Shown here: piece by piece, positions 15,225 through 55,511 of the stretch
Layout: each line of letters opens with the position of its first letter
Position numbering within the stretch: position 1 is the first letter of the stretch
Assembly (NCBI RefSeq): GCF_002355595.1
Contig: NZ_AP017422.1
Span: 5,150,823-5,214,822 of the forward strand
DNA length: 64,000 nucleotides
Direction of reading: 5' to 3'
From: Filimonas lacunae
Lineage (GTDB): Bacteria > Bacteroidota > Bacteroidia > Chitinophagales > Chitinophagaceae
Notes under the pieces: model-generated
Seen by the model: only the letters and a program-made list of their open reading frames with translations
Databases searched by the model: none
Told to the model about the DNA's origin: nothing
Position numbers and translations under genes: made by a program

Positions 15225-18200
15225 TTAACGGGTAAGTGTAATGGTTCCTTTTTTAATAATCCTGCCTTGCACAGTTAACACATAGAAATAAGTGTCGTCC
15301 TGGAACACACGCAGGGCTAATTTACCTTCCCAGTCGTTACTGTAATGCTCTTTTTCATAAATCATTTTACCGCTACGGTCAAAGATGCGCAGCACGTTAT
15401 CCGGATAAGCATCAATGTTATCAATCACAAACTTGTCGTTAATACCATCACCGTTAGGGGTAATGATCACGTGTGGAGTGATTTTAAAGTCTTCAACTAC
15501 CTGTACAGTCACATTCCCTGTTGCCTTACAGCCATTAATATCCGTTACCGCTACCGTGTATTGCGTGGTTACAAACGGACGGGCCGTTGGCGATGTACTT
15601 AATGGGAAGGTAAGCGAAGCAGCCGGAGTCCAGCTGGCAATAGCTATAGTAGTGGTAGAGCTTACAGACAGTTTTGTGGCATCTCCTTTAGAAACACTGC
15701 TTGCCGCACTGCTTACAGTAAGTACCGGTAATGGGCTTACCGTTACTACATAAGGCAGAGACGTAGCCATACATCCGTTTCCGTTGGTAACAGTGAGTGA
15801 ATAAGTACCCGCTGTAGTAGCGGTATAAGACTGACCGGTTGCACCGGAAATAGCCGTTCCATTCAGATACCATTGGTTGCCGGTTGCAGACAACGAAGTA
15901 AACGTTACACTGCCTCCTGTACAGATGTTTAATGTACCGCTTACCGTTACCAGTGCTGTAGGTAAGGTAAACACTACAACTATCTGCGGCAGAGATACAG
16001 CCGAGCAGCCTGCGCCATTGGTAACACGCACCGTGTAAATACCACTGGCGGTAGCACTATAAGTGCTTCCTGTAGCCCCCGCAATAGCCACCCCATTATT
16101 AAACCACTGATTACCGGTAGCTGATGAGGAAGTAAGTGTTACACTGGCACCTAAACAGAAGTTTAAAGGACCACCAGGCGTAACAACCGGTATAGCAGGT
16201 GCATTGCTTACTGTTACAGTTGCAGTAACAGCCTTCGTACAGGTTCCATTGCTATAAGTATAAGTGATTACAGCTGTACCAGCGGCTATTCCCGTAACCA
16301 AACCAGTGCTGCTGTTAACCGTAGCCGCAGCAGTATTGCTACTGGTCCAGCTTCCACCGGCGGTGGTGTTAGACAACTGCGTGGTTAATCCTGTACAAAC
16401 AGCTGTGTTACCAGTTATAGCTGCCAATACCGGTAAGGCATTTATTGTTACGGTAGCAGTGGCTGTATTGCTACAGGTTCCATTATTATAAGTATACGTA
16501 ATAATGGTAGTATCAGCAGATACACCAGTTACCAAACCACTGTTATTGATTGTGGCCACAGCAGTGTTACTACTGCTCCAGCTGCCACCAGCAGTAGCAT
16601 CAGCCAGTTGTGTGGTTAAGCCCGCACATACCGCAGTTGTTCCGGTAATGGCCGCTACAGCAGGCAGCGCATTGACAGTTACTGTAGTAGTAACAGCATT
16701 TACGCAGGTGCCACTATTATAAGTATAGGTAATAGTAGTAGAACCAGCTGACACACCGGTTACCAGCCCCGTAGTGCTGCTAATAGTAGCCACAGCAGTG
16801 TTGCTGCTGCTCCAGCTACCTCCGGTAGTGGCATCAGACAACTGGGTAGTAAGTCCTGCACAAACAGTAGTAGTTCCGGTAATAGCCGCCATCACCGGCA
16901 AAGCATTTACGGTAATAGTAACCGTTGCTGCATTGCTACAGGTTCCATTGTTGAAAGTATAAGACACTACAGATGTACCAGCCGACACGCCGGTTACCAG
17001 GCCTGTGCTGCTGATAGTAGCTACTGCAGTATTACTGCTACTCCAGCTACCACTTGCGGTTGCATCGGCCAGCTGTGTAGTTAATCCTGCACACACAGAC
17101 GTTGTGCCTGTTATAGCTTCTACTGCCGGCAACGGTCTTACCGTTACTACAGTAGTAACAGCATTCGTACACAGACCATTACTATAAGTATAAGTAATAG
17201 TAGAGGCTCCCGCTGCTATAGCAGTTACCAGTCCCGTGCTGCTGATAGTAGCTGATGCGGTGCTGCTGCTGCTCCAGGTGCCACCTGAAGTAGCATTGGC
17301 CAGCTGCGTGGTTTGTCCCGAACAAACAGTGGTGCTACCCGTAATAGGTGCTACCACAGGAGTGGCATTTACGGTTATAGTAGCAGTGGCAGTGTTGTCA
17401 CAGGTACCGTTATTATAGGTATAAGAGATAATGGCTGTTCCTGCCGACACACCGGTTACCAGGCCGGTAGCGGCATCTACAGTAGCGATAGCCGTATTAC
17501 TGCTGCTCCAGCTGCCACCGGTAGTAGCATCGGCCAGCTGCGTAGTTAAACCGCTACACACCGTGGTAGTGCCTGTTATAGCAGCTACGGCAGGTAACGC
17601 ATTTACGGTTATCGTAGTAGTAACCTGGTTACTACAGGTTCCATTATTGTACAGATATGTAATGGTGGTGGTACCAGCTGACACGCCGGTTACCAGGCCA
17701 CTGGCATCTATAGTAGCAACAGCTGTATTACTGCTGCTCCAGCTGCCACCGGTAGTAGCATCAGCCAACTGGGTAGTTAAGCCGGCACATACACTGGTAG
17801 TGCCCGTAATAACATCTATCACCGGCAGTGCATTTACAGTGAGGCTAGCAGTAGCCGTATTGGTACAAATACCATTATTATACGTATACGTGATGATAGC
17901 GGTACCTGCTGCCACACCTGTTACCAGGCCAGCAGCATCTATGGTAGCTATAGCAGTGTTATCACTGCTCCAGCTGCCACCGGTAGTAGCGTCAGATAAT
18001 TGAGTGGTTAAACCAGCACACACGCTGGTTGTTCCTGTAATAGCAGCTACCGCAGGTAATGCGTTTACAGTTATAGCTGCCGTAGACGTATTAGTACAGG
18101 TGCCGTTATTATAGGTATAGGTAATAGTAACAGTTCCTGCCAATACACCGGTTACCAAACCACTGGCATCTATGGTAGCCACAGCAGTATTGCTGCTGCT

Positions 18201-21200
18201 CCAGCTGCCACCGGAAGTAGCATCCGCCAATTGCGTAGTAAGTCCCGCACACACAGAAGTGGCACCGGTAATAGCAGCAACTACTGGCAGTGCGTTTACA
18301 GTAACGGCTGCTGTAGCCGTATTGGTACAGGTTCCATTATTATAAGTATAGGTGATAGTGGCGGTACCAGCAGTTACGCCGGTTACCAGGCCAGCTGCAT
18401 CCACTGTAGCTATAGCCGTATTATCACTGCTCCAGCTACCGCCGGTGGTTGCATCCGCCAGTTGCGTAGTAAGTCCCGCACACACAGAAGTGGTACCGGT
18501 AATAGCAGCAACTACTGGCAGTGCGTTTACAGTAACGGTTGCTGTAGCCGTATTGGTACAGATTCCATTATTATAGGTATAGGTAATGGTGGTAGTACCC
18601 GCAGTTACGCCGGTTACCAGGCCAGCTGCATCTATGGTAGCCACAGCAGTATTGCTGCTGCTCCAGGTACCACCGGTAGTGGCATCCGCCAACTGCGTGG
18701 TTAAGCCCGCACATACCGTAGTAGTGCCCGTGATGGCAGCTACGGCAGGTAAAGCATTTACCGTTACTGTGGCAGTAGCAGTATTGCTGCAGGTTCCATT
18801 ATTATAAGTGTAAGTAATAGTGGCGGTGCCAGCAGATACGCCGGTTACCAGACCAGCAGCATCTATGGTTGCTACAGCTGTGTTACTGCTGCTCCAGCTA
18901 CCACCGGAAGTGGCATCAGCTAACTGGGTAGTTAAACCCGCACACACAGAAGTGGTGCCAGTAATAGCGGCTACTGCAGGTAAAGCATTTACAGTTACGG
19001 TTGTAGTAGAAGTATTGCTACAGGTACCGTTATTATAAGTATAGGTGATAGTGACTGTACCCGCAGCTACACCCGTAACCAGGCCAGCAGCATCTACTGT
19101 AGCCACAGCAGTATTGCTGCTGCTCCAGCTGCCACCGGTAGTGACATCAGCTAACTGGGTAGTTAAGCCGGCACAAACAGAGGTAGTACCAGTAATAGCA
19201 GCAACAGCCGGCAATGCATTCACCGTAATGGTGACAGTAGCCGTATTGCTACAGGTACCATTGTTAAAGGTATAAGTAATAGTGGCAGTACCAGCAGATA
19301 CGCCGGTTACAAGCCCACTGGCATCTATAGTAGCTACAGCCGTATTACTGCTGCTCCAGCTGCCACCGGTAGTGGCATCAGCTAACTGGGTAGTTAAGCC
19401 GGCACAAACAGAGGTAGTACCAGTAATAGCAGCAACAGCCGGCAATGCATTCACCGTAATGGTGGCAGTAGCCGTATTGCTACAGGTACCATTGTTATAA
19501 GTATAAGTAATAGTGGCGGTACCAGCAGATACACCGGTTACAAGCCCACTGGCATCTATGGTAGCCACAGCAGTGTTGCTGCTGCTCCAGCTGCCACCAG
19601 CGGTAGCATCTGCCAGTTGCGTAGTTAAGCTGGCACAAACGGATGTGGTTCCGGTGATAGCAGCTACAACAGGTAAAGCATTCACCGTAATGGTAGCAGT
19701 AGCAGTATTGCTACAGGTACCATTATTATAAGTATAAGTAATAGTGGCGGTACCAGCAGATACGCCGGTTACAAGCCCGCTGGCATCTATGGTAGCCACA
19801 GCAATGTTGCTGCTGCTCCAGCTGCCGCCGGTAGTAGCATCTGACAATTGTGTAGTTAAACCGGCACACACAGTTGTGGTGCCGGTAATAGTGGCTACTG
19901 CCGGTAAAGCATTCACTGTAATGGTAGCAGTAGCCGTATTGCTACAGGTACCATTATTATAAGTATAAGTAATAGTGGCGGTACCAGCAGATACGCCGGT
20001 TACAAGCCCGCTGGCATCTATTGTAGCCACAGCAGTGTTACTACTGCTCCAGCTACCACCGGCAGTGGCATCAGCCAGCTGCGTGGTTAAACCAGCGCAC
20101 ACGGCTGTAGTTCCTGTAATAACATCCACTACAGGAACGGCATTTACTGTTACGGTAGCAGTAGCTGTGTTGGTACAGCTGCCATTATTGTAAGTATAGG
20201 TAATAGTAGTAGTACCAGCTGAAACACCGGTTACCAGGCCTGTGCTGCTGATAGTGGCTACAGCCGTATTGCTACTGCTCCAGCTGCCACCAGAGGTAGC
20301 ATCAGCCAGCTGTGTATCAGATCCGGCACATACAGTAGTAGTTCCGGTAATAGCAGCTACTGCCGGTGTTGCATTTACCGTTACTGTAGCAGTGGCAGTA
20401 TTACTACAAGTGCCATTGTTAAAGGTATAAGTAATAGTAGCAGAACCTGCCGTTACGCCGGTTACCAGGCCACTGGCGTCAACGGTAGCCACAGCTGTAT
20501 TGCTGCTGCTCCAGCTGCCCCCTGCAGTAGCATCGGCCAGTTGGGTGGTTAAACCTGTACAAACAGTAGTAGTGCCGGTGATGGCAGCAACTGCAGGTAA
20601 GGCATTGACCGTTACAGTAGTGGTAGCCGTATTACTACAGGTGCCATTATTATAGGTATAAGTAATCGTAATGGAACCAGCAGACACGCCCGTTACCAGG
20701 CCAGTGCTGTTAATGGTAGCCACAGCTGTATTACTGCTGCTCCAGCTGCCACCAGTGGTAGCATCGGCTAACTGGGTAGTTAAACCGGCACATACAGATG
20801 TGGTACCGGTAATAGCGGCTACTGCCGGAGTGGCATTTACAGTTATGGTTGCCGTAGCCGTATTAGAACAGGTTCCATTATTATAAGTATAGGTAATGGT
20901 AGTAGTACCGGCTGTTACACCTGTTACTAAACCACTGGCATCTATGGTAGCCACAGCAGTGTTACTGCTGCTCCAGCTACCGCCGGTGGTAGCATCGGCC
21001 AGTTGAGTAGTGAACCCGGTACATACAGATGTGGTGCCAGTGATGGCAGCAACTGCAGGTAAGGCATTTACGGTTACCGTTGTTGTAGCCGTGTTAGTAC
21101 AGGTACCATTATTATAAGTGTAGGTAATGGTAGCGGTTCCGGCAGATACACCGGTAACCAGCCCACTGGCATCTATGGTAGCTATGCCTGTGCTACCGCT

Positions 21201-23108
21201 GCTCCAGCTGCCCCCGGTAGTGGCATCTGCCAACTGTGTTGTTAAACCGGCACAAACCGTAGTTACACCAGTGATGGCAGCCACTGCCGGCACTGGATTT
21301 ACAGTAATAGTAGTGGTGGCCGTGTTGGTACAAGTACCATTATTATAGTTATAAGTTATTGTAGCGGTTCCTGCAGACACGCCTGTTACCAGGCCCGTGC
21401 TGCTGATAGTAGCTACCGCAGTGTTACTACTGCTCCAGCTGCCACCGGCAGTAGCATCTGCCAGCTGGGTAGTCAAACCTGCGCATACAGATGTAGTGCC
21501 TGTAATGGCAGCAACTGCCGGCAGCGCATTTACTGTAACCGTTGCAGTGGCCGTGTTGGTACAGGTACCATTATTATAGGTATAAGTTATTGTAGCCGTA
21601 CCAGCAGATACACCGGTTACCAGCCCACTGGCATCTATGGTAGCCACAGCAGTATTACTGCTGCTCCAGCTGCCGCCGGTGGTAGCATCGGCCAGTTGGG
21701 TAGTCAAACCTGCACAAACGGAAGTGGTGCCGGTAATAGCAGCCACTGCTGGTTGAGCGTTTACTGTTACAGTAGTGGTGGCAGTATTCGTACAGGTTCC
21801 ATTGTTATAAGTGTATGTAATGGTGGCAGTACCAGCAGATACGCCGGTTACCAGACCTGTGCTGCTGATAGTAGCGATGCCTGTACTACTGCTACTCCAG
21901 CTACCTCCTGCTGTAGCATCGGCCAGTTGGGTTGTTGAACCGGCACAAACCGTAGTGGTGCCCGTAATGGCAGCGACTGCCGGCATTGTGTTAGCAGTAA
22001 CATTTACAGTTAAAGTACTAGAAGCAGAACCATCACTTAATGTAATCACAAAATTATCCGTACCTGTATAGCTTGTATTAGGTGTAAGCGTTAAACCAGC
22101 AGGTGTAACACTATCTCCTGTAGAAGTAGTAGAATAAGGGAAACCACCTAGTGTAGCATGTGCGGGTGCAGTAGTTACACTCCAGGTAAGCGTTTGACCG
22201 GTATTACCATCATACCCTTTTAACAAAGTATTTAAGTTTACCACTCCCCCGTTTTGACAATATGCCAATGTAGTAGGAGAAGTTCTCGCAAAAACAGGAG
22301 GAATATTAATATTCAAGGTAGAAGAAGTGGTGCTGATACCATTGGTAGTAGAACCAGGTGAGGTGTTATCTCCCGTCCAGTTACTTGTGTTGTTTAAGCG
22401 GGCCAGCCAGGTAGCTTTATCAGTAAAGGTTGTTGGCCCGTTATATTGTACGTTCCTCTGAAAACCCGCACCTCCCGTCATGCCCACAGCAGTAGTACCT
22501 TTGGTAAGTGTATTCTGACTGCCGTTTCCATCAGGAAAGTTGGAATCGCGCAAGGACATAGTCACAACAGTATTCCAACCCGTAGCATCTACTGCGCCAT
22601 CATTGGTGTTATTAAACCCATAAATAAAATATGGATTATTATCAGCTCCCTGGTAAATAAAAATCCCATCACCAGTATTGGTAATAGGATCAGTTACCGT
22701 ATAACCTACCACATTGGAAAGCTGTGCATTCAAACTGTCACCAGTAGAATTGTTAGCCATTTTGGGGCCACTGTTGGGGTCTGAATTCTTTTGCTGAAAA
22801 CGAATGGATAGCAATGTTCCTGCCGGAACAGCTGTTGCCCCTACCGTCCAGGTGAATACTCCATCTCCGGTAGCTGTGCCGGTCCATTGCTGGGTGCTGT
22901 TGTTCCATCCATAGTCGGTGAATTTAACCACCGTTCCGGAAGGAATAGTGGCCAGCGTAACAAAGTTTACAACGTTGGTATAGGTGTTCCAACCCGTCAT
23001 TACAATATCACCGGGACTAAGCGTTTGTGCGTTGACCTTACAAAGGCAGCAAAGCATACAACACAGTAAAAACAAGCGTTTACTACGCTGGAGTAGAAAT
23101 GTAATCAT
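15225..23108 (-). CDS. Giant T9SS-exported protein with 25 Ig-like (Big_2-type) repeats and CHU_C domain
   Basis: This 2627-residue protein starts with a signal peptide (residues 1-27, cleaved before QTLSPG). An N-terminal domain of about 240 residues follows, then a cadherin/Ig-like stretch to about residue 372. Next come 25 repeats of 77-78 residues (about 373-2300), each with VCAG, TTQLADA, GSWSS, GLVTGVSAG and TYNNGTC; the two Cys per repeat could form a disulphide. Two further Ig-like and one PKD-like domain precede a CHU_C gliding-motility-type C-terminal domain (ITPNGDGIND, FDRSGKMIYE, DDTYFYVLT), the type B T9SS sorting signal. It is probably a long surface stalk or adhesin. The ligand-binding part would be the N-terminal domain, of unknown specificity. 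Confidence 0.9.
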   Translation of the reverse strand: MITFLLQRSKRLFLLCCMLCCLCKVNAQTLSPGDIVMTGWNTYTNVVNFVTLATIPSGTVVKFTDYGWNNSTQQWTGTATGDGVFTWTVGATAVPAGTLLSIRFQQKNSDPNSGPKMANNSTGDSLNAQLSNVVGYTVTDPITNTGDGIFIYQGADNNPYFIYGFNNTNDGAVDATGWNTVVTMSLRDSNFPDGNGSQNTLTKGTTAVGMTGGAGFQRNVQYNGPTTFTDKATWLARLNNTSNWTGDNTSPGSTTNGISTTSSTLNINIPPVFARTSPTTLAYCQNGGVVNLNTLLKGYDGNTGQTLTWSVTTAPAHATLGGFPYSTTSTGDSVTPAGLTLTPNTSYTGTDNFVITLSDGSASSTLTVNVTANTMPAVAAITGTTTVCAGSTTQLADATAGGSWSSSSTGIATISSTGLVTGVSAGTATITYTYNNGTCTNTATTTVTVNAQPAVAAITGTTSVCAGLTTQLADATTGGSWSSSNTAVATIDASGLVTGVSAGTATITYTYNNGTCTNTATATVTVNALPAVAAITGTTSVCAGLTTQLADATAGGSWSSSNTAVATISSTGLVTGVSAGTATITYNYNNGTCTNTATTTITVNPVPAVAAITGVTTVCAGLTTQLADATTGGSWSSGSTGIATIDASGLVTGVSAGTATITYTYNNGTCTNTATTTVTVNALPAVAAITGTTSVCTGFTTQLADATTGGSWSSSNTAVATIDASGLVTGVTAGTTTITYTYNNGTCSNTATATITVNATPAVAAITGTTSVCAGLTTQLADATTGGSWSSSNTAVATINSTGLVTGVSAGSITITYTYNNGTCSNTATTTVTVNALPAVAAITGTTTVCTGLTTQLADATAGGSWSSSNTAVATVDASGLVTGVTAGSATITYTFNNGTCSNTATATVTVNATPAVAAITGTTTVCAGSDTQLADATSGGSWSSSNTAVATISSTGLVTGVSAGTTTITYTYNNGSCTNTATATVTVNAVPVVDVITGTTAVCAGLTTQLADATAGGSWSSSNTAVATIDASGLVTGVSAGTATITYTYNNGTCSNTATATITVNALPAVATITGTTTVCAGLTTQLSDATTGGSWSSSNIAVATIDASGLVTGVSAGTATITYTYNNGTCSNTATATITVNALPVVAAITGTTSVCASLTTQLADATAGGSWSSSNTAVATIDASGLVTGVSAGTATITYTYNNGTCSNTATATITVNALPAVAAITGTTSVCAGLTTQLADATTGGSWSSSNTAVATIDASGLVTGVSAGTATITYTFNNGTCSNTATVTITVNALPAVAAITGTTSVCAGLTTQLADVTTGGSWSSSNTAVATVDAAGLVTGVAAGTVTITYTYNNGTCSNTSTTTVTVNALPAVAAITGTTSVCAGLTTQLADATSGGSWSSSNTAVATIDAAGLVTGVSAGTATITYTYNNGTCSNTATATVTVNALPAVAAITGTTTVCAGLTTQLADATTGGTWSSSNTAVATIDAAGLVTGVTAGTTTITYTYNNGICTNTATATVTVNALPVVAAITGTTSVCAGLTTQLADATTGGSWSSDNTAIATVDAAGLVTGVTAGTATITYTYNNGTCTNTATAAVTVNALPVVAAITGATSVCAGLTTQLADATSGGSWSSSNTAVATIDASGLVTGVLAGTVTITYTYNNGTCTNTSTAAITVNALPAVAAITGTTSVCAGLTTQLSDATTGGSWSSDNTAIATIDAAGLVTGVAAGTAIITYTYNNGICTNTATASLTVNALPVIDVITGTTSVCAGLTTQLADATTGGSWSSSNTAVATIDASGLVTGVSAGTTTITYLYNNGTCSNQVTTTITVNALPAVAAITGTTTVCSGLTTQLADATTGGSWSSSNTAIATVDAATGLVTGVSAGTAIISYTYNNGTCDNTATATITVNATPVVAPITGSTTVCSGQTTQLANATSGGTWSSSSTASATISSTGLVTAIAAGASTITYTYSNGLCTNAVTTVVTVRPLPAVEAITGTTSVCAGLTTQLADATASGSWSSSNTAVATISSTGLVTGVSAGTSVVSYTFNNGTCSNAATVTITVNALPVMAAITGTTTVCAGLTTQLSDATTGGSWSSSNTAVATISSTTGLVTGVSAGSTTITYTYNSGTCVNAVTTTVTVNALPAVAAITGTTAVCAGLTTQLADATAGGSWSSSNTAVATINNSGLVTGVSADTTIITYTYNNGTCSNTATATVTINALPVLAAITGNTAVCTGLTTQLSNTTAGGSWTSSNTAAATVNSSTGLVTGIAAGTAVITYTYSNGTCTKAVTATVTVSNAPAIPVVTPGGPLNFCLGASVTLTSSSATGNQWFNNGVAIAGATGSTYSATASGIYTVRVTNGAGCSAVSLPQIVVVFTLPTALVTVSGTLNICTGGSVTFTSLSATGNQWYLNGTAISGATGQSYTATTAGTYSLTVTNGNGCMATSLPYVVTVSPLPVLTVSSAASSVSKGDATKLSVSSTTTIAIASWTPAASLTFPLSTSPTARPFVTTQYTVAVTDINGCKATGNVTVQVVEDFKITPHVIITPNGDGINDKFVIDNIDAYPDNVLRIFDRSGKMIYEKEHYSNDWEGKLALRVFQDDTYFYVLTVQGRIIKKGTITLTR
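16207..21990 (-). repeat. Tandem array of 25 coding repeats, period 231 bp
   Basis: Twenty-five units of 231 bp (three have one extra codon) encode the Ig-like repeats. Many are nearly identical at DNA level as well as in protein; for example the units around 19282-19500 and 19513-19731 differ at few positions, including synonymous ones. Low synonymous divergence points to recent duplication or gene conversion. Copy number may vary between strains, and short-read assemblies could collapse the array. Confidence 0.95.
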
Positions 23109-32330: not shown

Positions 32331-32430
32331 AAAATTTACCCGGAGCGGGCGCAATTTGAGTTAGATAATAACCCCTGAGAAACTTATGATAATCACCCCC
32401 TTCAGGGGATTAGGAGGATAAAAGAAAAAA

Positions 32431-32524
32431 GGCAGGCTTAATACATCGCACCGCTCAACCACCTACCCTTGCTACCTTCCGGTCCTGGGGGAGTTCAGCA
32501 GGAGCTGGTCGTGTATGACCTGCC
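32431..32524 (-). ncRNA. ffs: Signal recognition particle RNA, small bacterial (4.5S) type
   Basis: The minus strand carries CCAGGACCGGAAGGTAGCA, the conserved SRP domain IV apical region with its GGAA tetraloop and asymmetric loop. The ends pair (GGCAGG at 32519-32524 with CCTGCC at 32431-32436), giving a hairpin RNA of about 94 bases without an Alu domain. A T-rich terminator tract follows, and a consensus promoter places the start at about 32524. The RNA binds Ffh and targets proteins to the inner membrane. Confidence 0.93.
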
Positions 32525-32529
32525 GGGTG

Positions 32530-32560
32530 CAAATGTAGTCATTTGCAATTGAACGCCAAA
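32530..32560 (-). promoter_or_regulatory. Consensus promoter of ffs
   Basis: TTTG at 32557-32560 and TACATTTG at 32530-32537 are exactly 19 bases apart, a textbook Bacteroidota primary-sigma promoter. The predicted start 5-6 bases downstream coincides with the first base of the SRP RNA stem. Confidence 0.85.
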
Positions 32561-51769: not shown

Positions 51770-51777
51770 TACTTTTG
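51770..51777 (+). promoter_or_regulatory. Candidate -7 element of purC
   Basis: TACTTTTG matches TANNTTTG exactly and ends 3 bases before the purC ATG, which would give a leaderless or nearly leaderless mRNA. No clear -33 TTTG is seen. Confidence 0.4.
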
Positions 51778-51780
51778 CGC

Positions 51781-52710
51781 ATGGCAAATTTTCAATTTCC
51801 GCAGCAGACTGCATTTTATAAAGGCAAGGTAAGAGATGTATATACTATTAATAAGGATTGGCTGGTAATGGTAGCCAGCAATCGCATCTCGGCGTTTGAC
51901 GTAATATTACCTGCTCCTATCCCTTACAAAGGACAAGTATTGAACCAGGTAGCTACTTATATGTTGAAAGCCACTACCGATATTTGCCCTAACTGGCTGG
52001 TAGCCACCCCTGCACCCGATGTAGCCATAGGCAAAAGATGCGAGCCCTTTAAAATTGAAATGGTAGTGCGCGGCAACCTTACCGGTCACGCATGGCGTAC
52101 TTACAGCAGTGGTAAACGTGTTCTATGCGGCGTTACCATGCCCGAAGGGATGAAAGAAAATGACTTTTTCCCTACTCCTATCATCACTCCTTCTACCAAA
52201 GCTTCCGAAGGACACGATGAAGATATTTCTAAAGAAGAGATTATTGCGCAGGGGTTAGCCACTACTGAAGAGTGGGCCATCCTGGAAAAATATGCACTGG
52301 CTTTATTTGCACGTGGCAAAGAAATAGCTGCAAAACGCGGTTTAATATTGGTAGATACCAAATACGAATTTGGCAAACTGGACGGACAGGTGTACCTGAT
52401 GGATGAAGTACACACCCCCGATTCATCCCGCTATTTTTATGCTGATGGCTTTGACGAAAGACAAACCACCGGCGAAAGACAAAAACAATTAAGCAAAGAG
52501 TTTGTACGCGAATGGCTTATTGCTAACAACTTCATGGGTAAAGAAGGACAGACTGTGCCTGAAATGACCACTGAATGGATTAACACTATCAGCCAGCGCT
52601 ATATTGAATTATACGAGCAGATCATTGGCGAAAAGTTTGTACCACAAGACTGGACAGACGATCAGCGCTTTGAAGCTACTACGAAAGAACTGGAAAAAGT
52701 AGTGAAATAA
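51781..52710 (+). CDS. purC: Phosphoribosylaminoimidazole-succinocarboxamide synthase
   Basis: PurC ligates aspartate to CAIR in purine synthesis. The family blocks are YKGKVRDVY at the ATP site, [52 protein letters not shown] and [17 protein letters not shown]. Its 309 residues correspond to the longer, monomeric yeast/Thermotoga-like class. ATG at 51781 is chosen over the upstream TTG. An IS element begins 26 bases after the stop and separates the gene from its probable terminator at 53924. Confidence 0.95.
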
Positions 52711-52802
52711 TTACACTTTACCTGTAGAAGTTAAGATTTGATCTGACAAATGGGATTAATTTTAAGTAACCACACTTTTAACCAATCCCAAAATGTCAGA
52801 CC

Positions 52803-53852
52803 ATGAAATCTGAAACTAAGTTAATCAAAACCAAGTTAGGACTCCTCAATTTAGCGGCTCATTTAGGCAATGTATCTCAAGCTTGCAAGGTAATGGGCTA
52901 CAGTCGCGACAGCTTCTACAGAATTAAAGAGCTGTACGATACCGGAGGAGAAAATGCCCTTCACGAAATCAGCCGAAAGAAACCTATTATCAAGAATCGC
53001 GTTGAGCCAGCCATCGAAGAAGCAGTGGTTACTATGGCCTTCGAGAATCCTGCCTGGGGGCAGCAGCGGACCAGTAATGAACTGCGCAAGAAGGGTATTT
53101 TTATTTCAGGCGGTGGTGTTCGTAGTGTTTGGCAACGCCATGATCTGGAAGTATTTGATAAGCGCCTGAAAGCATTAGAAGCCCGTGTGGCTCAGGATGG
53201 TCTGATACTTACCGAAGCTCAGATGATAGCAATGGAGCGCAAAAAAGAAAAGCGGGAATCCCAGGGTGAAATAGAAACTATGCATCCAGGTTACCTCGGT
53301 TCCCAGGATACTTACTACGTGGGCACAATTAAGGGCGTGGGCAGGATCTATCAGCAAACCTTCATTGATACCTATAGTCGTGTGGCCTTTGCCAAGCTCT
53401 ATGACGGCAAAACAGCCCTTACAGCAGCAGATACGCTGAATGATCGGGTATTGCCTTTCTTTGAATCACATCAGATCCCACTTCTTCGAATTCTTACAGA
53501 CCGTGGCACTGAGTACAAAGGCAAACCAGAGCACCACGAATATGAACTATACCTGCAAATCGAGGGTATTGATCACACCAAAACCCAGGTGCGGCATCCA
53601 CAGACGAACGGTATCTGTGAAAGGCTTCACAGGACTATGCAAGAAGAATTTTACGCGGTCACATTCCGGAAAAAACTGTACGACAGCATCGACGATCTGC
53701 AAAATGATCTGGATGCTTGGATGGAGTACTACAACAATGAAAGACCACATAGTGGCAGATATTGCTTTGGTAAAACTCCTATGCAGACATTTATCGAATC
53801 ACTACCTTTAGCAAAACAAAAGCTGCTGAATGACCTATATTCAGCAGCTTAA
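52803..53852 (+). CDS. IS481-family transposase
   Basis: The 349-residue protein has an N-terminal helix-turn-helix of the Leu-zipper/HTH_29 type (LGLLNLAAHLGNVSQACKVMGYSRDSFYRIK), a second HTH (TSNELRKKGIFISGGGVRSVW) and an rve integrase core. The DDE residues appear to be Asp in SQDTYYVG, Asp in RILTDRGTEY and Glu in NGICERLHRTMQEEF, followed by YNNERPHSG. All parts are present and the frame is unbroken, so the element may be active. Confidence 0.92.
   Translation: MKSETKLIKTKLGLLNLAAHLGNVSQACKVMGYSRDSFYRIKELYDTGGENALHEISRKKPIIKNRVEPAIEEAVVTMAFENPAWGQQRTSNELRKKGIFISGGGVRSVWQRHDLEVFDKRLKALEARVAQDGLILTEAQMIAMERKKEKRESQGEIETMHPGYLGSQDTYYVGTIKGVGRIYQQTFIDTYSRVAFAKLYDGKTALTAADTLNDRVLPFFESHQIPLLRILTDRGTEYKGKPEHHEYELYLQIEGIDHTKTQVRHPQTNGICERLHRTMQEEFYAVTFRKKLYDSIDDLQNDLDAWMEYYNNERPHSGRYCFGKTPMQTFIESLPLAKQKLLNDLYSAA
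53820..53850 (+). terminator. Hairpin at the end of the transposase gene
   Basis: AAGCTGCTGAAT (53820-53831) pairs perfectly with ATTCAGCAGCTT (53839-53850); the stem lies within the last codons and is followed by a T-rich stretch inside the IS. Confidence 0.65.
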
Positions 53853-53923
53853 TATCTTTGTTTTAATCCTCGTTTGTCAGATCAAATACTATCTAATACA
53901 CTTTACCGGTTCACCTATTATTG

Positions 53924-53959
53924 CAGCATACTACCATTAGTAGTATGCTGTTTTTTTTT
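53924..53959 (+). terminator. Strong intrinsic terminator, probably the original purC terminator
   Basis: CAGCATACTAC (53924-53934) pairs with GTAGTATGCTG (53940-53950) across CATTA and is followed by nine T. It lies 37 bases beyond the right end of the IS. Without the IS it would be about 60 bases after the purC stop, the expected place. Confidence 0.85.
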
Positions 53960-54001: not shown

Positions 54002-54589
54002 CTATCTATTGCATCTTCTTGCACATATGCAATATTTTCAAAAACATGTGCCGCGTAGCATTGTACATCTGCAGTGTACCAATGTACATTTGCAATATGC
54101 CTTGTTCTATGTTACCTGTCATACAGTACATTGTACATAAGACGCGTACAACAGTACGGCAACCATTGCACATGTTCATCAACATACTGCACATATGCAA
54201 CAACTCCCTTAACATCTTCCGCATCCTGAAATACATTTACTGCATACTCCATAACATCTGCAATATTTCGCGTTATATGTGCAGTAGCACAAAAAACACC
54301 TGCAACCCCGTAGTACACAATTACAACATCACGTTACACATATTCAGCACTACACGTAAGATATTACCTAAAACAATGCACATATGTATCCCTGCACTGC
54401 AGATTTGCTTTATTTCCCATAAGATATAATCCGGAATAATGCAGATGTTTAGCGCTCTCCTTAATGCATTACTGCACATAATGCTTTTGTACAATATCAA
54501 ACAGCATCTGTATTATATTATCTGCAATACACGTAACTCTCCATATAATAAATGCAACAACATAATGAACATGTGTAGTAAAACAAAAA
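54002..54589. repeat. Degenerate direct-repeat array with an exact 21-bp period
   Basis: About 28 units of 21 bp follow one another without an indel. The best-conserved part is ACATNTGCA. Close matches begin at 54023, 54044, 54065, 54086, 54128, 54170, 54191, 54212, 54233, 54254, 54275, 54296, 54338, 54380, 54401, 54443 and 54569, every one a multiple of 21 apart, while the other 12 bases of each unit vary freely. The plus strand is open from 54019 to 54429 as 7-residue units with a recurring I-C, but minus frames are also open, so this need not be coding. It lies between the displaced purC terminator and the terminator of the 54636 gene. Confidence 0.8.
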
Positions 54590-54614
54590 GCGCCACTTCT
54601 TACGAAGTGGCGCT
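54589..54614 (-). terminator. Terminator of the 54636 gene
   Basis: A perfect 11-bp stem, AGCGCCACTTC (54589-54599) with GAAGTGGCGCT (54604-54614), is followed on the minus strand by TTTTTGTTTTA. It marks the edge of the 21-bp array. Confidence 0.88.
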
Positions 54615-54635: not shown

Positions 54636-55154
54636 TTAATGCCTTCCATTACCTTTACCGTTTCCGTTATTGCCTTTGCCATTATTACCTTTTCCGTTGT
54701 TTCCTTTACCTTGATCAGGATGATCTTTTACCCATTGACTGTGCTGAGGATGTTTCCTGTTTTCAAAGTACTTCTCTTCTTTGCTGTCGCGAATAGGTGT
54801 TTGATCGTGTTTACCTTTAAAGCTGGCGTATTGCTTCTGATACTGTGCATGATTTAAGTAAGGCTTATCAACGTTATTGATTACCACTTTATGTGCCTGG
54901 TACAAATCGATGTTTTTATAACGGGCAGGTAAGCTGCTGGAACGACGCCAGGTGTTACCGTTTTGATAGATATATACTTTTTCAGGTACATAATAGTAAA
55001 CATCAGCATCAGGCAAATAATAATAATCCACATGATCATAACCTGTAGGACCCCAAACAGGCTGGGTACCAATATTAATGCTAACACTCACCTGGGCATT
55101 AGCGGTTACTGTAAAAACAGTAGCAGCGATTAAAAGGGTCATTAACTTTTTCAT
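54636..55154 (-). CDS. Small secreted protein with Gly/Asn/Lys-rich tail
   Basis: The 172-residue protein has a signal peptide (MKKLMTLLIAATVFTVTANA, then Q). Its core has VSVSINIGTQPVWGPTGYDHVDYYYLPDADVYYYVPEKVYIY, a pattern seen in many small Bacteroidota exported proteins of unknown function, followed by a Lys/His/Asp-rich region and a C-terminal KGNNG repeat. The frame is open 26 codons further up, but those residues lack any signal and the internal Met gives a normal signal peptide. The function is unknown; the charged repetitive tail suggests an envelope or polymer-binding role. Confidence 0.75.
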   Translation of the reverse strand: MKKLMTLLIAATVFTVTANAQVSVSINIGTQPVWGPTGYDHVDYYYLPDADVYYYVPEKVYIYQNGNTWRRSSSLPARYKNIDLYQAHKVVINNVDKPYLNHAQYQKQYASFKGKHDQTPIRDSKEEKYFENRKHPQHSQWVKDHPDQGKGNNGKGNNGKGNNGNGKGNGRH

Positions 55155-55511
55155 ACTAAATGGTTTTGCTCTATGTAAATCAAAACGGATGCCTGATATA
55201 CCTTCCATTGTTTTAAAACGATGTACTTGCAAAATTCATCGACATACAAAAACATTGTTGCAACATATGCCACAATACCAGCGTAGTATGTTCAAATGAC
55301 ATACACACGAATACATATAAAGCAATTATTACACAGGTGAAAAGCGGCAGCTGCAGGCAAATTCAATGCCTGATAAATTTTATATTTTTTTTCAGCGATG
55401 TAGTTGCAGAATGTGTAGACGAACTAACACAACATTACAGCATACGCACAATGCGCTGCACTGCTGCTTTTTGATGGCACAGTTTTGACGCTACAACACT
55501 AAACTTAGATT
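55155..55511. other. Intergenic region without recognisable gene
   Basis: These 357 bases lie between the divergent 54636 and 55512 genes. They are AT-rich, contain no convincing promoter pair and no frame with a good start, and do not continue the 21-bp periodicity, although a single ACATATGC occurs near 55263. Confidence 0.5.

Follow-up and report, generated by a model that had tools for sequence, protein, structure and literature searches.

Phased arrays of short palindromes in intergenic DNA of Filimonas, candidate rows of sites for dimeric DNA-binding proteins

The DNA analysed here (the window) is a stretch of 64,000 nucleotides from the chromosome of Filimonas lacunae, positions 5,150,823-5,214,822 of a single contig of 7,814,405 bp. 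The genome of F. lacunae NBRC 104114 (7,814,405 bp) has been published (PMC4945802). An array of degenerate 21-bp units lies in the window at a locus composed of the following features, given in window coordinates.

51775..52710, + strand: purC, encoding SAICAR synthetase, left neighbour of the array (PF01259, E 4.4e-70)
52803..53852, + strand: rve-type IS transposase 3' of purC and outside the array (rve_3 and HTH_29)
53925..53959, + strand: left terminator-like hairpin with a T run, assigned to purC (by eye)
54002..54589, no strand: the array, 28 units of 21 bp with the consensus TGCACATNTGCA followed by about 9 bp and dyad axes each 10.5 bp
54020..54463, no strand: better-conserved part of the array, with cores at 54023, 54044, 54065, 54086, 54191, 54254 and others
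54464..54568, no strand: degenerate stretch of the array, register maintained up to the core at 54569
54590..54613, - strand: right terminator-like hairpin, 3' of the 54636-55232 gene (by eye)
54636..55232, - strand: right neighbour, an uncharacterised gene with homologues in Bacteroidota and no Pfam match (frames and homology)

The array is thus flanked by convergent genes with a terminator-like hairpin on each side. The insertion sequence is placed between purC and the next terminator-like hairpin and is bounded by an 11-bp direct repeat, TACACTTTACC, at 52712-52722 and 53897-53907, with inverted ATTTGATCTGACAAA (52736) and TTTGTCAGATCAAAT (53873) near its ends. The original prediction had attached weight to the position beside an IS; the element does adjoin the array, but it carries its own direct repeat and its bearing on the array looks incidental. 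The five neighbour genes scanned with Pfam include those for SAICAR synthetase, the transposase, the unmatched protein and a rhodanese. A scan of the whole window against Rfam gave a single gathering-level match, the SRP RNA at 32426-32532, and none in the array. Elsewhere in the window, about 24 copies of a 231-bp tandem repeat (16321-21983) possibly belong to a repetitive protein gene.

The array had been predicted as 588 bp of degenerate 21-bp units, and autocorrelation with shuffling controls bears this out. Identity at lag 21 within 54002-54589 was 0.446 against 0.275 in shuffled sequence (z 9.4, 500 dinucleotide-preserving shuffles). The expected peaks at multiples of 21 were also found, with z values of 7.9 (42), 7.8 (63), 6.6 (84) and 7.6 (105), and all remaining lags within 1-109 gave z of at most 2.9. 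Tandem Repeats Finder recovers just 2.4 of the 28 units (54044-54094), which marks the array as degenerate. Register was assessed by a Viterbi alignment in which the motif was trained on the five other arrays of the same (main) family and each shift was penalized in bits. The indel-free register that had been claimed holds for all 28 units at a penalty of 10 bits, whereas at 7 bits one cancelling -9/+9 pair (54465, 54480) appears. In all, four of the six main-family arrays are unchanged at 10 bits, L034 and L035 showing cancelling pairs only. More shifts occur at 7 bits, nine of them in L037; in five arrays their sum modulo 21 is zero, and L033 carries a +7 shift within its final bases. Indels are also scarce in the flanking intergenic DNA (3 per 140 substitutions, two stretches), so that retention of register is weaker evidence of selection than it appears.

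Matches to the ACATNTGCA core occur on both strands, offset by three bases in the pattern search, because this core belongs to a 12-bp palindrome, TGCACATNTGCA. The unit has another dyad axis, a weaker one, 10.5 bp off. The column profile pooled over the six main-family arrays (167 units) correlates with its own reverse complement at a dyad r of 0.92, with lower values for L034 (0.63) and L037 (0.51) taken singly. The rest of the unit is not nearly random, as had been supposed: all 21 columns in these 167 units deviate from background, and the weakest, column 14, does so at p 1e-3 when units are treated as independent. The pooled consensus fraction per column ranges from 0.36 to 0.84, with positions 1, 3, 4 and 6 at 68-84% and positions 5 and 14 at 36-38%. 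This unevenness is common to the six arrays, with a mean pairwise r of 0.50 against a maximum of 0.25 in 2000 column permutations, a model without shared ancestry of the arrays. Its recurrence across arrays argues against a uniformly decaying minisatellite, which had been one of the readings offered.

The main-motif pattern search of F. lacunae gave 43 matches, against 6 with a reversed control. Clusters were located at 0.995, 2.349, 4.092, 4.251 and 5.205 Mb, and these together with a single match at 5.363 Mb hold arrays in six of six cases. Apart from those at 6.07 and 7.03 Mb, the remaining single matches have no array at the match. Three exact main-motif sites lie outside arrays in this genome, two of them inspected (L283 and L285) and without an array, the third at 7371735. 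Ten F. lacunae places among the matches of a further family pattern search were inspected, two of them known arrays and eight without an array at the match.

A survey of periodicity revealed arrays with other motifs. It covered 800 kb of F. lacunae as 40 stretches of 20 kb at even intervals, and 680 kb of F. zeae as 34 stretches located on the four largest contigs, all picked by position and not randomly. The survey uses fixed lags, and mixed-pitch arrays such as L254 may escape it. Twelve of the 20 periodic tracts in F. lacunae have periods at multiples of 21, and ten were kept as non-coding arrays; L154 and L217 (period 21) were excluded with a frame open throughout, and L145, L207, L213 and L216 were counted despite long open frames, on position and codon score. 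In F. zeae, multiples of 21 account for 7 of 13 tracts, and a further tract has a period of 65. Seven 65-bp units with internal palindromes, near-identical save the last, are present at L233:13345-13799 of F. zeae and may be a young array whose pitch is three times 21.7. The same scan found tracts at multiples of 21 in none of two in the congener G001 (320 kb, a sample expected to hold four arrays at the density of F. lacunae), none of five in five other Chitinophagaceae (180 kb) and none of 19 in other Bacteroidota (1.52 Mb around one gene, 79 loci L062-L140). At other thresholds, period-21 signals outside Filimonas were seen in L103, where the tract is open throughout, and weakly in Pedobacter L113 (0.384, the threshold being 0.38). 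Within the samples scanned, the arrays are restricted to F. lacunae and F. zeae. A total of 21 arrays were seen in the F. lacunae chromosome, and extrapolation from ten per 800 kb gives perhaps about 98 per genome.

The search for the core at 21-bp spacing in relatives (TGCACATNTGCA-N9-TGCACATNTGCA, up to 3 mismatches) found it in none of 58 relatives besides its own genome. The exact doublet is absent from viral contigs, and the array used as query gave no match to plasmids. Counting clustered palindromic 6-mers lacked the sensitivity needed. One period-21 signal in F. lacunae (L305) was rejected as a glycine-rich-looking coding repeat. A new palindromic array with a 42-bp period around TTACAACTGTAA was observed in F. 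zeae about 1 kb from a chance match (L302:2584-2900), with a frame open throughout.

The arrays fall into several motif families. The main family, with palindrome TGCACATGTGCA, comprises the window array and L033-L037. Other families are CTGGTACCAG (L158, L160), AAGCTT (L174, with L160b similar at r 0.61), CCGT..ACGG (L145 and L061, r 0.56), CTTCCYC..GRGGAAG (L167, L206), GTGGGGATNATCCCCAC (L163, L209) and GTAAGTACTTAC (L254, L286-L288). The palindromes TGAGCGCTCA and TATAGCTATA were found in L213 and L231, respectively, and TCCGTACGGA and TCCCATGGGA in L040, where a strong hairpin (CCAACTGTGCACCGCCCGT ... ACGGGCAGTGTACAGTTGG) adjoins the array (L040:1056-1114). Of 15 arrays tested, a set that left out L034 and L037, nine have significant dyad symmetry (p 0.002 each, 500 column permutations); four of the nine belong to the main family. 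The symmetry is non-significant in L158 (p 0.21), L160a (0.07), L160b (0.12), L162 (0.47), L173 (0.10) and L061 (0.08). The F. lacunae genome has 22 exact GTAAGTACTTAC sites, all of them within four arrays and none standing alone. Spacings of 21 and 22 are mixed in this family, which means that exactly 21 is not universal. Two families are common to both species: L163 and L209 are 78% identical over 293 bp without gaps, and the likeness of L167 and L206 was judged by eye. Two arrays of different families directly adjoin each other in F. zeae (L262, reverse-strand 2294-2880).

Presence of the arrays varies between the sister species. At three of four matching loci compared, an array present in one species is absent from the other, and the fourth locus carries unrelated arrays. 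The L216 array of F. lacunae, between the genes of RNase Y and ZapA (Pfam), is absent from F. zeae (about 70 against 830 bp), and the G001 locus is occupied by about 830 bp of different, gene-like sequence (by eye). An F. zeae array next to an ammonium transporter gene, L162, is absent from F. lacunae (about 28 bp) and from G001 (about 210 bp against 1,080). The L173 array of F. zeae is likewise absent from F. lacunae (about 77 bp against 430). The homoserine dehydrogenase gene is accompanied by an AAGCTT array in F. zeae, by an unrelated GTAAGTACTTAC array in F. lacunae and by about 85 bp in G001. Such turnover argues against an essential role. Two F. zeae loci, L259 and L261, are identical at 333 of 383 bp (87%, one gap), a likeness that indicates recent copying, and the GTAAGTACTTAC arrays L286 and L287 have a common tail beyond the array (by eye). 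Young homogeneous arrays are L061:13886-14158 of F. zeae (13 near-identical units), L163 (42-bp units) and L233 (65-bp units), and the existence of L061 suggests that arrays may start as minisatellite-like expansions. A separate element of 70-100 bp with a terminator-like end was noticed next to the RNase Y gene (L216:16020-16130) and in L202, L258 and L263-L266, with 77-84% identity in Filimonas and G001.

The best explanation, to which we give a nearly even chance, is that these are dispersed extragenic arrays of putative dimer-binding sites that share one helix face, with a selfish satellite as its close rival. Each array would be a row of short palindromic DNA sites two helical turns apart (21-22 bp, often 42-43 bp), and each palindrome would be the site of a dimeric DNA-binding protein. 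About 12-40 dimers could then lie side by side on one helix face and build a lattice, with separate motif families read by separate proteins or paralogues. Tandem amplification would create the arrays and copying would carry them to new intergenic places, an outline visible in the young homogeneous arrays, the single 383-bp copied pair and the species-specific presence. Linkers would afterwards drift while site positions and register are held, as the column statistics of the main family show, probably through selection. The lattice may serve chromosome architecture or be part of a self-serving element. A protein lattice is favoured because the sites are symmetric, sequence-specific and in phase, without clear base-pair covariation. 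Of the readings first offered for the array, phased DNA sites have the best support, from the dyad r of 0.92, the columns shared by six arrays and the register. Iterons do not fit many chromosomal arrays and the absence of a replication gene among five neighbours. Binding, dimers, cooperation and selection in the arrays are all read from sequence patterns. Ten or more unrelated motifs would require many proteins, and a GTAAGTACTTAC motif without lone sites is odd for an ordinary regulator; both points stand against the lattice.

An extension of the lattice reading, which we regard as unlikely, is that array-binding architectural proteins, each with its own palindrome, partition the Filimonas chromosome into territories marked by motif families. 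The six main-family arrays are at least 1.7 Mb from the origin (about 7.1 Mb, as inferred from GC skew), and the six arrays identified for the GTAAGTACTTAC and CTGGTACCAG families are all within 1.2 Mb of it. This pattern is post hoc and concerns twelve arrays, in which members of the same family may be mutual copies, and it leaves out several single matches (e.g., 6.07 and 7.03 Mb, and seven or so of the second search).

A selfish or neutral satellite is a serious possibility, though below even odds. Palindromic units would expand by slippage, be copied between intergenic places and decay, without a host function or a binding protein. The young homogeneous arrays (L061, L163 and L233), the copied pair L259/L261 and the turnover between species are all consistent with it. 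Neighbour genes of 25 arrays occur in every orientation (6 convergent, 14 tandem, 4 divergent and 1 unclear), a rough tally in which the nearest frame is wholly or partly inside the array in about eight cases, and the sign of GC skew of the array is that of its region in 15 of 18 arrays. SbcD is a nuclease acting on palindromes. No match to it over the cut-off is present in F. lacunae (G000) or F. zeae (G002), and G001, without arrays in its sample, has a strong one. However, just 5 of 29 genomes have SbcD over the cut-off, and those below it include G004, G008, G011 and G015, whose small samples hold no such array. Loss of SbcD as the cause of the arrays fits within the genus, yet with 24 of 29 genomes lacking a match over the cut-off it can be at most permissive. 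The satellite reading also has to accommodate columns that are unequally conserved alike in six arrays, and it leaves unexplained why unrelated motifs share 21-22 bp.

That the arrays are transcribed and act as rows of RNA hairpins is improbable. Folding is far more stable than in shuffled sequence for L040 (z -13.9) and also stands out for L036 (z -6.5; 20 shuffles each), but is modest in L035 (z -2.8) and only weakly better than shuffles in the window array (z -2.6 and -1.4, 100 shuffles each). In units that form RNA hairpins, partner positions are expected to change together. With 42-bp columns, about ten of 20 arrays contain single centres with z of 3.5-4.7, values drawn from many centres and inseparable from higher-order repeats; by contrast, 17 arrays have no clear within-unit covariation (overall z up to 2.5, in L160a; L040, L163 and L174 below -3). 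Among 46 left-half changes in 61 units of the GTAAGTACTTAC family, 3 coincide with a change at the dyad partner (2.9 expected), and in no case is pairing restored. Dyad symmetry without clear within-unit covariation fits DNA sites better than RNA hairpins.

A decayed protein-coding heptad repeat, a reading the original prediction also entertained, is very unlikely: the period is divisible by 3, the window array holds frames of 136 aa (+) and 76 aa (-), and the longest open frame covers 0.77-0.94 of L145, L207, L213, L216, L163 and L231, but the 54019 (+) and 54006 (-) frames have no Pfam match, the codon score of the 54019 frame is -0.17 (+0.09 for a 66-codon frame at 54439), the columns are dyad-symmetric, and the longest open frame covers just 0.23-0.66 of L158, L160a, L160b, L206, L208 and L209.

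If the arrays do bind proteins, as the lattice reading proposes, they could serve directly as baits: a culturable type strain carries about a dozen motif families, each a row of phased sites, and the congener G001 has no array in a 320-kb sample. They would then allow a test of whether satellite-like arrays are employed in bacterial chromosome architecture or are simply carried along. A standard repeat finder misses most of a degenerate array (2.4 of 28 units recovered), and similar classes may therefore be overlooked elsewhere.

Several known repeat systems resemble the arrays in part. CRISPR loci have repeats of 24-48 bp, unique spacers and cas genes; the window array differs in its 21-bp pitch and 12-bp core, and no cas families were found among its scanned neighbours. 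Iterons and the repeats of plasmid partition sites are direct repeats about two helical turns apart. Filimonas differs from these systems in having many arrays on one chromosome, and none of the five neighbours of the window array is a replication or partition gene (Pfam). The arrays are like minisatellites in their tandem units and in including young homogeneous and old degenerate members, but differ in the palindromic core and in the register held despite linker drift. They are like MITEs in being short, intergenic, present or absent at matching loci, and copied; junctions at three loci, viewed by eye, revealed no terminal inverted repeats and a possible 6-bp direct repeat, ATAAAA, at one (L162).

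REP sequences are described in PMC2817692 and PMC3733652 as dispersed, grouped extragenic palindromes that are uneven among species, with BIMEs holding regularly spaced REPs, and according to PMC3733652 the palindrome has GTAG or CGTC as a tag at its foot. In 14 arrays (347 units with 3 bases of overlap), GTAG (either strand) occurs in 34 units and CGTC in 33, too few for a REP tag. One Y1_Tnp gene each is present in F. lacunae, F. zeae and G001; a RAYT as driver of the arrays is doubtful, since the Y1_Tnp gene occurs both in the species with arrays and in the one without them in its sample. No description of such arrays was found in the open-access literature, subscription papers and preprints being outside that scope. 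The Filimonas arrays resemble REPs and BIMEs as extragenic palindromic units in many copies, their dyad significant in 9 of 15, and differ from them in rows of about 12-40 units, a pitch of 21-22 bp and many unrelated motifs per genome. The occurrence of many such rows, with differing site sequences, in F. lacunae and F. zeae suggests a type of repeat, DNA-binding or self-spreading, that has not been described before.
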